A DNA stretch of 64,000 nucleotides. Origin: Ensifer adhaerens. Lineage in GTDB: Bacteria; Pseudomonadota; Alphaproteobacteria; Rhizobiales; Rhizobiaceae. The DNA is taken from assembly GCF_001270265.1 (NCBI RefSeq), contig NZ_LGAP01000030.1, positions 1-64,000 on the forward strand, given 5' to 3'. Of the stretch, positions 36,656-50,900 are shown one piece after another (the first letter of the stretch is position 1; every line of letters begins with the position of its first letter). Made by a program: the position numbers and the translations under genes. The notes under the pieces are model-generated. The model saw only the letters and a list, made by a program, of their open reading frames with translations, made no database searches and was not told the DNA's origin.

Positions 36656-36712
36656 AACCTGTTATACAGATTTGACAAGTTTGCGCGCATCTGTCTAAGT
36701 ATGTGTCATACA
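36656..36712 (+). promoter_or_regulatory. Promoter flanked by two GntR-type operators (enolase-esterase-binding protein operon)
   Basis: A -35 box TTGACA (36672-36677) and a -10-like TAAGTA (36696-36701, 18-base spacer) are bracketed by TGTTATACA at 36660-36668 and TGTCATACA at 36704-36712. The second is the reverse complement of TGTATGACA, the motif repeated upstream of kdgF and the permease operon; the first differs from it at one base. They are 44 bases apart centre to centre, about four helical turns. The rest of 36453-36655 shows nothing notable. Confidence 0.6.
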
Positions 36713-36753
36713 GGATGGCGGGGAGCCGGCCATTTTCGCATACCGGAGGAACA

Positions 36754-37902
36754 ATGATCATCACCGACGTCGACGTGCGGGTCTTCCGCACGACCACGCG
36801 CCGCCATTCTGATAGTGCCGGTCACGCACATCCAGGCCCGCCGCATCAGGTCGAGCAAGCAATGCTGACCGTTCGCACGGAAGATGGTCAGGAAGGGCAC
36901 TCCTTTACCGCGCCGGAAATCGTTCGACCGCATCTGATCGAGAAGTTCGTGAAGAAGGTTCTCGTCGGTGAGGACCATCGCGATCGTGAACGGCTGTGGC
37001 AGGATCTTGCTCACTGGCAGCGCGGGTCGGCCGCGCAACTTACCGATCGTACGCTTGCGGTTGTCGATTGTGCTTTGTGGGATCTTGCAGGAAGAACACT
37101 CAATCAACCTGTATACAAGTTGATCGGCGGTTACCGCGACAAGGTGCTGGCCTATGGCTCCATCATGTGCGGTGATGAGTTGGAGAATGGCCTGGCGACA
37201 CCGGAGGATTACGGTCGTTTCGCCGAGACGTTGGTCAAGCGCGGTTACAAGGGCATCAAGCTACACACCTGGATGCCGCCCGTCAGTTGGGCGCCTGACG
37301 TGAAGATGGACATCAAGGCCTGTGCCGCCGTGCGCGAAGCGGTAGGGCCGGATATCCGCCTGATGATCGACGCCTTCCACTGGTATTCCCGCACGGATGC
37401 GCTCGAACTCGGGCGTGGCCTTGAAAAGCTCTGCTTCGACTGGATCGAGGAGCCGATGGATGAGCAGTCGCTCTCTTCCTACAAGTGGCTTGCGGACAAT
37501 CTCGACATCCCCGTGGTCGGCCCGGAAAGCGCTGCGGGCAAGCATTGGCATCGCGCCGAGTGGATCAAGGCCGGCGCCTGCGACATACTGCGCACCGGCG
37601 TCAACGACGTCGGTGGCATCACGCCTGCGCTCAAGACCATGCATCTCGCTGAGGCCTTCGGGATGGAATGCGAGGTGCACGGCAACACTGCGATGAACCT
37701 GCATGTGGTGGCTGCCACCAAGAACTGCCGCTGGTACGAGCGCGGCCTGCTGCATCCGTTCCTCGAATATGACGACGGCCACGATTACCTGAAGTCGCTC
37801 TCCGATCCAATGGACCGGGACGGGTACGTCCATGTGCCAGATCGGCCAGGTCTCGGCGAGGACATCGATTTCGACTTCATCGAGAACAACCGCGTGCGGT
37901 GA
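36754..37902 (+). CDS. Enolase-superfamily (mandelate racemase subgroup) sugar-acid dehydratase or isomerase, unassigned
   Basis: 382 residues. Start at ATG 36754 after GGAGGAAC. The barrel shows metal ligands Asp206 (LMIDAFHWYS), Glu in WIEEPMDE and Glu258 (VVGPESAAGK), and the dyad His309 (CEVHGNTAMNLH). The second-strand catalytic motif reads K169-L-H171 (GYKGIKLHTWMPP), not the K-x-K of mandelate racemase. The active-site cap has several His in the first 35 residues (RRHSDSAGHAHPGPPHQ). Uronate-type operators at its promoter and a linked oligosaccharide/peptide-type importer point to a pectin-derived sugar acid. Reaction not assigned. Confidence 0.85.
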   Translation: MIITDVDVRVFRTTTRRHSDSAGHAHPGPPHQVEQAMLTVRTEDGQEGHSFTAPEIVRPHLIEKFVKKVLVGEDHRDRERLWQDLAHWQRGSAAQLTDRTLAVVDCALWDLAGRTLNQPVYKLIGGYRDKVLAYGSIMCGDELENGLATPEDYGRFAETLVKRGYKGIKLHTWMPPVSWAPDVKMDIKACAAVREAVGPDIRLMIDAFHWYSRTDALELGRGLEKLCFDWIEEPMDEQSLSSYKWLADNLDIPVVGPESAAGKHWHRAEWIKAGACDILRTGVNDVGGITPALKTMHLAEAFGMECEVHGNTAMNLHVVAATKNCRWYERGLLHPFLEYDDGHDYLKSLSDPMDRDGYVHVPDRPGLGEDIDFDFIENNRVR

Positions 37903-37921
37903 CGAGCGAGGTAATTGGGCA

Positions 37922-38551
37922 ATGAAGACAGTTCTCGCCTTCGGCGACAGTCTGACATGGGGTGCGGATCCGGCGACAGGTCTGCGCCATCCCCCCGAAA
38001 GTCGCTGGCCGGAAGTTCTCAGCCGGGAACTTGGCGGCTCGGCAAAGATCGTATCGGAAGGGCTCGGCGGGCGCACCCCCTGCTATGACGACCATGCCGG
38101 ACCCGCCTGCCGGAATGGCGCCAAGGCGTTGGAGGTGGCGCTTGCCAGCCACATGCCGCTCGATCTCGTGATCGTCATGCTCGGAACCAACGACATCAAG
38201 CCGGTGCACGGTGGGCGCGCCGAGGGAGCGGTTTCCGGCATGCGCCGCCTGGCGCAGATCGTAGACACCTTTCCTTACAAACCGAGCGGGGCGAAGCCGA
38301 AGGTCCTGATCGTCGCACCGCCGCCATGTTCGCCCGGCCCAGGCGGGTACCCGGCGGCGGGGCGAAGCGTGGCGGAATCCGAGCGGCTTTCCCCGCTTTA
38401 CCGCAAGCTCGCCTGCGAACTCGGCCACGCGTTCTTCGATGCTGGCGCAGTCGCTCGCGGCTCTGAGATCGACGGTGTGCATTTGGAAGCGGCCGCGACT
38501 GCAGCCATCGGCCGCGCACTCGCAGCCCCCGTCGGCGCAATTCTTGGCTGA
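37922..38551 (+). CDS. SGNH/GDSL hydrolase (arylesterase-like)
   Basis: 209 residues. Block I is FGDSLTWGADP with the nucleophile Ser, block II Gly in SEGLGGRTPCYDD, block III is MLGTNDIK with the oxyanion Asn, and block V is DGVHLEAAAT with Asp and His. There is no signal peptide, so it acts in the cytoplasm. It follows the enolase-superfamily gene by 19 bases. A deacetylase or lactonase step on imported sugar-acid material is possible; substrate unknown. Confidence 0.87.
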   Translation: MKTVLAFGDSLTWGADPATGLRHPPESRWPEVLSRELGGSAKIVSEGLGGRTPCYDDHAGPACRNGAKALEVALASHMPLDLVIVMLGTNDIKPVHGGRAEGAVSGMRRLAQIVDTFPYKPSGAKPKVLIVAPPPCSPGPGGYPAAGRSVAESERLSPLYRKLACELGHAFFDAGAVARGSEIDGVHLEAAATAAIGRALAAPVGAILG

Positions 38552-49263: not shown

Positions 49264-50088
49264 ATGCTGACTGTGGAAACAAGACAGGCGGTCAACCCGG
49301 AATATGCCAAGACACTCGATACAACAGGGCTCCGGCGGCATTTCCTGGCTCAGGGCATGTTCAGGACCGGCGAGATCCGGCTGATCTATACCCATTACGA
49401 TCGTTTCGTGATCGGCGGGGCGGTGCCGGGCGATCAGCCCCTGACGCTGGCCAAGGTCGAGGAAACCAAAACTCCACTGTTCCTCGATCGGCGTGAAATG
49501 GGCATCGTCAATATCGGTGAGACCGGTACCGTGGTGGCCGGTGGTGAAACCTACACCTTGAGCCGCGGCGATGTCCTTTACCTCGGTGCCGGAACGGGTG
49601 AAGTCACCTTCGCTGGCAAGGGCCGGTTCTATATCACGTCGTGCCCGGCGCACCGTCGTCTGCCGGCACGCCTCATCACCGCTTCTGAAAGCAAGGAAGT
49701 GAAAATGGGGACGTCGGCAACCTCCAACAAGCGCACCATCAACCAGTTCATTCATCCACTCGTGATGGAGAGTTGCCAGTTGGTGCTTGGCTACACAACG
49801 CTGGAGGACGGATCCGTCTGGAACACCATCCCCTCGCATATCCATGACCGCCGCATGGAGGCCTATCTCTACTTCGGCATGGACGAAAAGTCCCGGGTTC
49901 TGCATCTGATGGGCGAGCCCCAGGAGACCCGTCATCTGTTCATCTCGAATGAGGAAGGCGCGCTTTCTCCACCCTGGTCGATCCATTCCGGTGCCGGTAT
50001 CGGCTCCTACACATTCATCTGGGCCATGGCCGGCGACAACGTTGATTACACCGACATGGACTTCATTCAGCCGGAGGACCTGAAATGA
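49264..50088 (+). CDS. kduI: 5-dehydro-4-deoxy-D-glucuronate isomerase
   Basis: 274 residues. Start at 49264 follows GGAGGAATTA; an ATG at 49252 is part of that ribosome site. Family blocks RRHFLAQGMFRTGEIRLIYT, YDRFVIGGAVPGD, then the zinc-binding half WNTIPSHIHDRRMEAYLYFG and WSIHSGAGIGSYTFIWAMAG. KduI isomerises 5-keto-4-deoxyuronate to 3-deoxy-D-glycero-2,5-hexodiulosonate. It overlaps kduD by four bases. Confidence 0.95.
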   Translation: MLTVETRQAVNPEYAKTLDTTGLRRHFLAQGMFRTGEIRLIYTHYDRFVIGGAVPGDQPLTLAKVEETKTPLFLDRREMGIVNIGETGTVVAGGETYTLSRGDVLYLGAGTGEVTFAGKGRFYITSCPAHRRLPARLITASESKEVKMGTSATSNKRTINQFIHPLVMESCQLVLGYTTLEDGSVWNTIPSHIHDRRMEAYLYFGMDEKSRVLHLMGEPQETRHLFISNEEGALSPPWSIHSGAGIGSYTFIWAMAGDNVDYTDMDFIQPEDLK

Positions 50089-50828
50089 AAAATCCCTTTT
50101 CGCTTCAAGGCCATAAGGCGCTAGTCACGGGCTCGAACACCGGTCTCGGGCAGGCGATCGCCATCGGTCTCGCTGCAGCCGGGGCGGAGGTGATCTGCGC
50201 AGCTCGCAGGCCGCCAGAAGAGACCCTCGATTTAATCACCGAGGCAGGCGGCAAGGCGATCGGACTTTCTCTCGATTTTGTCGATCCCATGGCCGCGCGA
50301 GACGTGTTCCAGGATCAGGGCGTCGACATCCTGGTCAACAACGCCGGCATCATCCGTCGCGCCGATGCGGTGGATTTTACCGAGGAAGACTGGGATGCGG
50401 TGATCGATGTAAACCTGAAGGCGCTCTTCTTTACGACCCAGGCGTTCGCGAAGGAATTGCTGGCCAAGGGGCGGCCAGGAAAGGTGGTCAATATCGCTTC
50501 GCTCCTTTCCTTTCAGGGTGGCATCCGTGTCCCATCCTACACAGCTGCGAAACACGGCGTGGCTGGTCTCACCAAATTGCTTGCAAACGAATGGGCGGCC
50601 AAAGGCATCAACGTCAACGCGGTTGCGCCCGGCTACATCGAAACCAACAACACTGAAGCGCTTCGCGTCGACGCTGCCCGCAACAAGGCAATCCTCGATC
50701 GCATTCCGGCCAATCGCTGGGGTCGTCCGCAGGACATCGCCGGTGCGGCGGTCTTCCTGTCGTCGCCGGCAGCCGATTACATTCATGGGGCGGTTCTCAA
50801 TGTCGACGGCGGCTGGATGGCGCGCTGA
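50085..50828 (+). CDS. kduD: 2-deoxy-D-gluconate/2,5-diketo-3-deoxygluconate 3-dehydrogenase
   Basis: 247 residues, SDR with TGSNTGLGQAIAIGLAAAGA, NNAGIIRRADAVDF, catalytic Ser in NIASLLSFQGG and Tyr/Lys in YTAAKHGVAGLTKLLANEWA. The ending HGAVLNVDGGWMAR is typical of KduD. The enzyme reduces the kduI product to 2-keto-3-deoxygluconate. Translationally coupled to kduI. KDG kinase and aldolase are not seen in the window. Confidence 0.93.
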   Translation: MKNPFSLQGHKALVTGSNTGLGQAIAIGLAAAGAEVICAARRPPEETLDLITEAGGKAIGLSLDFVDPMAARDVFQDQGVDILVNNAGIIRRADAVDFTEEDWDAVIDVNLKALFFTTQAFAKELLAKGRPGKVVNIASLLSFQGGIRVPSYTAAKHGVAGLTKLLANEWAAKGINVNAVAPGYIETNNTEALRVDAARNKAILDRIPANRWGRPQDIAGAAVFLSSPAADYIHGAVLNVDGGWMAR

Positions 50829-50842
50829 CCTGCTGAATAGAG

Positions 50843-50900
50843 AGTCATCACACAACTTGTATGATGACTTATTGACATATGTCGTATGTGTAGCTAAATG
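50843..50900 (+). promoter_or_regulatory. Operator palindrome and promoter of the kdgD-gci operon
   Basis: A 27-bp inverted repeat (50843-50869; outer arms AGTCATCA and TGATGACT, inner ACAA and TTGT, one mismatch) contains TTGTATGAT. It abuts a -35 TTGACA (50872-50877), which is 17 bases from TAAATG (50895-50900). GACATATGTC (50874-50883) is a further perfect dyad overlapping the -35. Confidence 0.65.

Follow-up and report, generated by a model that had tools for sequence, protein, structure and literature searches.

The pectin and uronate gene cluster examined here lies between 36.7 and 53 kb of a 64,000-nucleotide stretch of Ensifer adhaerens DNA (the window; contig NZ_LGAP01000030.1), part of a 7.46-Mb genome of the Ensifer/Sinorhizobium group. 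At the left end of the cluster, the plus strand carries, in order, an enolase-superfamily gene, a GDSL hydrolase gene, and a gene for a family 5 solute-binding protein (SBP); this enolase operon is convergent with a four-gene dpp-type transporter operon. The minus strand continues with a small cupin gene (kdgF-like), two genes for GntR/FCD regulators (here called GntR1 and GntR2), an aldehyde dehydrogenase gene, and a udh-like gene, beyond which kduI, kduD, kdgD, and a gci-like gene follow on the plus strand (Table 1). The first-pass annotation of this DNA proposed that a single operator, shared by five transcription units, joins these genes in one regulon. Inspection of the promoters revealed instead two related operator classes that are divided largely by target gene and that may correspond to the two regulators.

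The sites on which that proposal was built are all present. The core TGTATGACA occurs at 44499, 44888, and 44922 on the plus strand and at 36704-36712 on the minus strand, and TTGTATGAT occurs at 50857-50865 (plus strand) and 49207-49215 (minus strand), within 1 to 2 bases of where it had first been placed. The sites are of two kinds: a symmetric form, TGT-N3-ACA (class 1), upstream of the enolase operon, the dpp-type permease operon, and kdgF, and an asymmetric form, TTGTATGATRAC (class 2), upstream of kduI/udh and kdgD-gci. Two further sites were found, one of class 1 at 36659-36669 and one of class 2 at 50844-50856; the latter forms a pair before kdgD with that at 50856-50868. The 44888 site is contained in a 25-bp inverted repeat with 11-bp arms (by eye). 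Class 1 sites stand beside a TTGACA hexamer and near the start in the enolase operon, and over the putative -35 element and near the start at kdgF; class 2 sites stand over a -10-like TACAAT at kduI and upstream of a TTGACA at kdgD. Most of these positions would suit repression, the promoter elements having been placed mostly by eye and an automatic promoter scan having performed at chance level (4 versus 3.5). A second short dyad with a 1-nt center, ACCTGTGACAGGT (44518-44530), lies upstream of the dppB operator; its CCTGTGACAG is kept in 10/10 aligned loci and is possibly a further binding site.

Exact TGTATGACA was observed 4 times in the window against 0.07 expected, and none of 100 shuffles contained at least four copies. 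TTGTATGAT is weaker on its own (2 observed, 0.17 expected, at least 2 in 1 of 100 shuffles). In the genome as a whole there are nine copies of TGTATGACA, four of them within 8.2 kb in this cluster, and five copies of the backward control. The looser YTGTNATACAR has 8 genomic matches (3 in the cluster), and its control has 15; what is unusual is therefore the clustering and not the genome-wide count. TTGTATGATRWS, a pattern written after its two sites had been seen, occurs twice in the genome, both times in the cluster (control, 0), and TTGTATGAYA occurs six times, once in the cluster (control, 3). The idea of a unique TGTATGACA regulon was rejected in view of the five copies outside the cluster. 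One of these is inside an aldehyde-dehydrogenase-like frame on contig C3, and three are in or beside open frames of uncertain coding status (all by eye). The fifth, on contig C35, is intergenic, and its conservation extends to congeners without GntR1: it is part of TTGTCATACAA (G000:C35:40526-40536, or L165:4027-4037), with an NAD-epimerase gene and, behind that, a Peripla_BP_4 gene on one side and a divergent ABC operon on the other. In an alignment of 12 such loci, TTTGTCATACAAA is found in eight, G008 and G002 have variants, and the L169 and L170 stretches are cut short of the site.

Conservation within the genus was assessed with nine congeners in which the cluster was found. Their loci include one (G008) that lacks udh, gci, and gntR2 at that place and two (L037 and L040) in which udh is only partial, and some stretches stop before the last genes. 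The sites had been said to lie in promoter regions, and indeed they are upstream of genes, within blocks that align across the window and the nine congeneric loci. TTGTCATACAG precedes dppB in 10/10 loci, with related blocks before kdgF and the enolase gene, where the 36704 copy is less conserved than the upstream 36659 copy. ATCATACAA precedes kduI in 10/10, and the block before kdgD is CTTGTATGATRACT in 7/10, with variants in L042, L043, and L044. GntR1 (at least 88% identity) and the enolase gene are present in the same 10 of 16 genus genomes, and neither is present in the other six. Five further congeners (G002, G005, G007, G011, and G013) have no GntR1 or enolase gene at the thresholds used and have a GntR2 ortholog (72 to 74% identity) with udh, kdgD, and gci; a genome-wide search for dpp genes was not made in these five. 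Within their udh/kdgD gaps (for L053, at the gap edge) there are class 2 matches, the best in each locus scoring 15.3 to 21.6 bits, and no class 1 match reaches 10 bits. In the rest of the five loci, of 20 kb each, there are two class 2 matches of at least 9 bits (9.7 and 9.1).

The division of the two classes by target was apparent from plain-pattern counts in the 150 bp upstream of each gene. These counts cover the window, L037-L056, L061-L111, and L153-L162, and were restricted to genes of at least 58% identity with an alignment start no more than 25 residues from the start and at least 100 bases upstream; Fisher values for the split treat related genomes as independent. TGT-N3-ACA was present in 108 of 111 enolase and dppB promoters versus 12 of 51 kdgD and kduI promoters, and the asymmetric form was present in 8 of 111 versus 43 of 51, the symmetric form being allowed any center and the asymmetric form only one center rule. 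By gene, the symmetric form was found at the enolase gene in 51/53, dppB in 57/58, kdgF in 24/31, kdgD in 7/34, and kduI in 5/17; the corresponding figures for the asymmetric form were 8/53, 0/58, 5/31, 29/34, and 14/17. The operator class of the kdgF promoter differs between lineages. A single matrix for all sites was dropped, since one base pair of one arm largely separates the enolase and dppB sites from those of kdgD and kduI, and the claim of one operator common to five units does not hold as stated. Sites are often paired. At kdgD, a second site (6 bits) lies exactly 12 bp from the first (9 bits) in 19 of 32 promoters, in direct or inverted arrangement by eye (next commonest lag, 4). Lags of 42, 12, or 44 bp are seen at 14, 12, and 11 of 52 enolase promoters and a lag of 34 bp at 12 of 28 kdgF promoters; no common lag was seen at dppB (21 bp in 4 of 57). 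Cooperative binding at paired sites would be a guess.

A class 1 matrix trained on 30 sites, from the window and nine congeners only, was applied to loci outside this set. Of 57 loci from a scan of named genomes, 55 were kept (L112 and L113 were unrelated matches). The promoter counts exclude L057-L060, duplicates of earlier loci, and the outside-set matrix test also excludes L061 and L062. Titles include Agrobacterium, Rhizobium, Peteryoungia, Neorhizobium, Chelativorans, Gemmobacter, Paracoccus, Neomegalonema, Cohaesibacter, and others, a few being named only as Rhizobiales or by family. Near GntR1 we found dppB in 53 of 55 loci (exceptions, L093 and L104) and the enolase gene in 47 of 55, once as a fragment. 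This agrees with the earlier suggestion that the transporter locus is linked to the set: it belongs with the uronate genes and has class 1 sites at dppB. In the 200 bp upstream of genes in L063-L111, class 1 matches of at least 12 bits were found at 38/41 enolase genes (misses, L082, L092, and L101), 42/47 dppB genes (misses, L065, L086, L097, L100, and L103), and 11/17 kdgF genes. The internal genes gave 1/38 (SBP), 0/32 (GDSL), and 0/43 (dppF), and random stretches gave 0.53% of 6000; the values for gntR1, gntR2, and kduI were 7/49, 5/20, and 1/2. Class 2 matches at this threshold were found at 4/4 kdgD, 1/2 kduI, 4/20 gntR2, 2/47 dppB, and 1/49 gntR1 genes (random, 0.60%). These counts are not independent, many of the genomes being close relatives, above all those of Agrobacterium. 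In A. tumefaciens B6, genomospecies 13, and Rhizobium sp. RM, the three genomes examined in this respect outside Ensifer, the GntR2 ortholog is in a gci-kdgD-kduD-kduI/udh-gntR2-kdgF cluster, and the GntR1-dpp unit is apart from this udh-kdu-kdgD unit.

Both regulators match PF00392 (GntR winged helix, N-terminal) and PF07729 (FCD, C-terminal) above the gathering score, which places them in the FadR (FCD) subfamily by domain content, as had been proposed for two genes in the middle of the cluster. They are 49% identical, and in a quick FastTree of 83 proteins, with fifteen loci left out, GntR1 is in a separate clade from GntR2 and GntR3. The recognition helix, SRTVVREAI, is identical in the two window proteins. 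The wing tip is Lys in all 10 genus GntR1 proteins, Gln or His in GntR2, and Gln in six GntR3 proteins. These 10 are the fair sample for Lys, found without the peptide patterns used to fetch L057-L111, one of which included the wing-tip Lys and so biases its conservation there. The residue aligns by eye with His65 of FadR in the numbering of PMC4494728, and that source names Lys-G and Gln-A, and also His-G, as favored contacts. A Lys/Gln wing tip would suit a one-residue switch, short of proof; the proteins with His fit poorly, and because His-G is also favored, His in some GntR2 proteins lends the wing-tip idea no support. Upstream of gntR2 there is a hairpin, CGCCATTGCC-GGG..GGCAATGGCG (46554-46574), partly kept in the GntR2-only congeners (by eye); it is terminator-like on the plus strand and folds slightly better than shuffles (z, -1.76). 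A second udh/kdgD/gci set in the same genome (L046, on G000:C12) has its own GntR paralog and sites of mixed type.

We consider it probable that the cluster comprises two adjacent pectin/uronate regulons, each under its own member of a pair of paralogous FadR/FCD-type GntR repressors and each with its own operator type, the two types being closely related. At the enolase-GDSL-SBP operon, at the dpp-type permease operon, and at kdgF, GntR1 would bind the symmetric (T/C)TGT-N3-ACA(G/A); at the divergent udh/kduI promoter and at kdgD-gci, which often has a second site at a distance of 12 bp, GntR2 would bind the asymmetric TTGT-ATG-ATRAC. Dimers on the DNA would block the promoter and would be released by a uronate or aldarate intermediate. 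This reading is favored by the class 2-like sites in congeners without GntR1 and by the separation of the two units in the three genomes outside Ensifer. The comparisons show the sites, their conservation, the two classes, and the association of GntR1 with the enolase gene within the genus and with dpp genes; the pairing of proteins with sites, repression, and the effectors are predictions. The identity of the recognition helices makes some cross-binding likely, and the two proteins may also form heterodimers, as ExuR and UxuR are proposed to do. Of the single regulon first proposed, what stands is that operators resembling those of GntR/FCD proteins lie in the promoters of linked uronate genes; these are better read as two adjacent regulons with possible cross talk. 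It is conceivable, though we would lean against it, that a duplication gave two repressors with the same recognition helix, which came to divide one pectin regulon between them by reading a single base pair of one operator arm differently (G:C in class 1 sites and A:T in class 2 sites). The wing-tip residue, which is Lys in GntR1 but Gln or His in GntR2, might underlie this difference, and kdgF would have switched allegiance by lineage according to the operator it carries.

Several observations weigh against two cleanly separated regulons. With the same center rule for both forms, symmetric sites number 44/53 at the enolase gene, 23/58 at dppB, 15/31 at kdgF, 6/34 at kdgD, and 2/17 at kduI, so dppB retains only 23, many of its sites having other centers. 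The matrices also cross: that of class 2 reaches 12 bits at 12/41 enolase and 8/17 kdgF promoters, and that of class 1 reaches 12 bits at 4/4 kdgD promoters (14.9 to 16.8 bits, class 2 scoring higher at 17.4 to 23.0). The udh/kduI region of A. tumefaciens B6 has a 22.3-bit class 1 match (L153:8940), some further kduI and kdgD promoters carry symmetric sites, and GntR3 loci, like some others, hold mixed site types. The wing-tip rule is imperfect, GntR2 of several genomes having His and not Gln. Eight of 55 GntR1 loci lack the enolase gene (L064, L065, L068, L071, L073, L074, L085, and L103); L103 is a 3.7-kb contig and L085 is cut at a contig edge, and the other six have dpp genes and no obvious cut by a contig end. 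Finally, the C35 core before the unlinked ABC operon is kept in G012, G013, and G007, all without GntR1 and the enolase gene, and another regulator therefore likely uses the same core there.

The best-surviving alternative is a single shared regulon: every site would be bound by both GntR proteins, each by itself or the two as heterodimers, and site differences would only tune affinity, as for ExuR/UxuR of Escherichia coli. The common SRTVVREAI helix, the cross-scoring matrices, and the presence of either class at kdgF depending on the genome are consistent with this, as is the ExuR/UxuR precedent, for which PMC9369180 describes cross-regulation and proposed heterodimers. Identical helices and partly mixed sites thus keep this view alive with partial support, but site type splits strongly by target gene, class 2-like sites are present where GntR1 is absent, and the two units are apart in the three genomes outside Ensifer, which leaves sharing of all sites rather improbable. 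It is less probable still, and would be surprising, that a third regulator of the same subfamily encoded outside the cluster uses some of the sites; the genome does have a third close paralog that is accompanied by a udh/kdgD/gci set of its own, and an unlinked locus conserves the same core, including in genomes without GntR1, but the class 1 sites of the enolase gene and dppB accompany GntR1 into other genera. That these strings recur by chance or as conserved promoter background, and are not operators, is hardly credible: TTGTATGAT by itself is only modestly rare in the window, promoters of close relatives are conserved in any case, and YTGTNATACAR is without genome-wide enrichment, but the cluster holds 4 of the 9 copies of TGTATGACA in 7.46 Mb, and the enolase and dppB sites are conserved across Rhizobiales and Rhodobacterales, the rates at internal genes being close to zero.

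The gene assignments differ in their basis (Table 1). The enolase protein is near-identical to PDB 1rvk over its whole length (876 bits over 382 amino acids) and 96% identical to its ortholog in the A. tumefaciens B6 locus; its predicted structure is a poor model (mean predicted local distance difference test score, 45.2). The subunit names of the four dpp genes are assumed, reading frames and synteny being their basis, and kdgF is the presumed name of the cupin gene, after the first-pass annotation. The names udh and gci, presumed in the same way, come from that annotation and from synteny; a curated NCBIfam search gave no specific model above the cutoff for udh, gci, or the aldehyde dehydrogenase gene. 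Beyond the cluster, a different conserved block, TTTGTACRAAA (54110-54135), lies beside an AraC-type gene, upstream of a sugar ABC operon leading to GH28 and GH88 genes, and a protein encoded downstream of the pectin genes (61394-62317) has weak nucleotidyltransferase and HEPN domain matches.

Table 1. Genes and predicted operators of the cluster, in window coordinates
Feature	Position	Strand	Basis or remark
Class 1 operator (predicted), CTGTTATACAG	36659-36669	+	18.1 bits; TTGACA hexamer of enolase operon 2 bp downstream (hexamer by eye)
Class 1 operator (predicted), TGTATGACA	36704-36712	-	14.9 bits; near putative -10/+1 of enolase operon
Enolase-superfamily (MR_MLE) acid-sugar dehydratase-like gene	36754-37902	+	Family search; PDB 1rvk match
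GDSL/SGNH hydrolase gene	37919-38551	+	Family search; nearest solved relative, 3dci ("Arylesterase")
Family 5 (dipeptide type) SBP gene	38640-40238	+	Family search
dppF-D-C-B-like ABC transporter operon	40934-44464	-	Reading frames and synteny
Class 1 operator (predicted), TTGTCATACAG, dpp operon	44498-44508	-	23.0 bits; kept in 10/10 aligned loci
Small cupin gene, kdgF-like	44556-44870	-	Cupin_2 (Pfam scan only)
Class 1 operator (predicted), kdgF promoter, 25-bp inverted repeat GTTAATGATGT-ATG-ACATCATTAAC	44880-44904		By eye; core matrix match at 44886-44898, 12.7 bits
Class 1 operator (predicted), TTGTCATACAG, overlapping putative -35 of kdgF	44921-44931	-	22.3 bits
GntR1, FadR/FCD-type regulator, inferred class 1 binder	44933-45682	-	Domain and ortholog comparison
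GntR2, FadR/FCD-type regulator, inferred class 2 binder	45765-46514	-	Domain and ortholog comparison
Aldehyde dehydrogenase gene, possibly 2-ketoglutarate semialdehyde dehydrogenase	46585-48102	-	No equivalog above cutoff
udh-like NAD epimerase/dehydrogenase family gene	48106-48975	-	No equivalog above cutoff
Class 2 operator (predicted), CATATCATACAAT, between udh and kduI	49204-49216	+	23.3 bits
kduI	49264-50088	+	NCBIfam model above cutoff
kduD	50085-50828	+	NCBIfam model above cutoff
Class 2 operator pair (predicted), 12 bp apart, upstream of putative kdgD -35	50844-50868		14.2 and 20.8 bits
kdgD, 5-dehydro-4-deoxyglucarate dehydratase	50933-51844	+	NCBIfam model above cutoff
gci-like enolase-superfamily gene	51869-53005	+	No equivalog above cutoff

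The system is a tidy and fairly ordinary bacterial control circuit, and the core of its class 1 sites is the published FadR-subfamily consensus. For plant-associated Alphaproteobacteria, it supplies operators that can be tested for two regulators of pectin-acid use. In Rhizobiales and Rhodobacterales, it links a dipeptide-type ABC transporter and an enolase-superfamily enzyme to a single regulator, and it provides a natural case in which duplicated repressors may part targets through very small sequence changes. Literature searches by operator strings gave nothing on these regulators by title and abstract among the matches listed, a search combining GaaR, Agrobacterium, and GntR gave no match, and searches by PDB code gave nothing relevant by title among the matches listed.

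Among known systems, GaaR of Agrobacterium tumefaciens is reportedly (Zhao and Binns, in 2016) a GntR-family regulator of galacturonate uptake and catabolism that binds the promoters of catabolic genes. In the review PMC6683767, gaaPQM corresponds to atu3135-3137 and the catabolic enzymes correspond to atu3138-3143. In strain B6, the GntR2 ortholog (76 to 78% identity) sits among the galacturonate genes, its neighbors being genes for a DctP-type binding protein and an amidohydrolase together with gci, kdgD, kduD, kduI, udh, and kdgF. The window unit differs from the GaaR system in lying next to a dpp-type ABC transporter and to GntR1, a second regulator, and no TRAP genes were seen among the cluster genes examined in the window. 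The GguR regulon of Proteobacteria, treated by Bouvier in 2018, is said to concern beta- and gammaproteobacterial families. PMC5507952 describes a GguR-type GntR-family regulator of udh/gci and aldarate genes in Halomonas; it shares with GntR1 and GntR2 of Ensifer the GntR family and, by prediction, the kind of genes regulated. ExuR and UxuR are a paralogous GntR pair over hexuronate control in E. coli (PMC9369180). GntR1 and GntR2 might be such a pair, being paralogous and having predicted site preferences that overlap by matrix, but ExuR and UxuR serve the Ashwell pathway, and their GT-AC spacing is 3 and 2 nt, respectively (PMC4494728), whereas it is 3 nt in both classes here. According to the same source, operators of the FadR subfamily are TKGT/ACMA dyads, typically with 3 nt between GT and AC, so each TGTATGACA can alone be a full dimer site. 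Class 1 fits this consensus in its TGT-N3-ACA core, with outer letters that are often CTGT or ACAG and not strict TKGT/ACMA, whereas class 2 has one fitting arm (TTGT), its other arm being ATRA and not ACMA (AC to AT).

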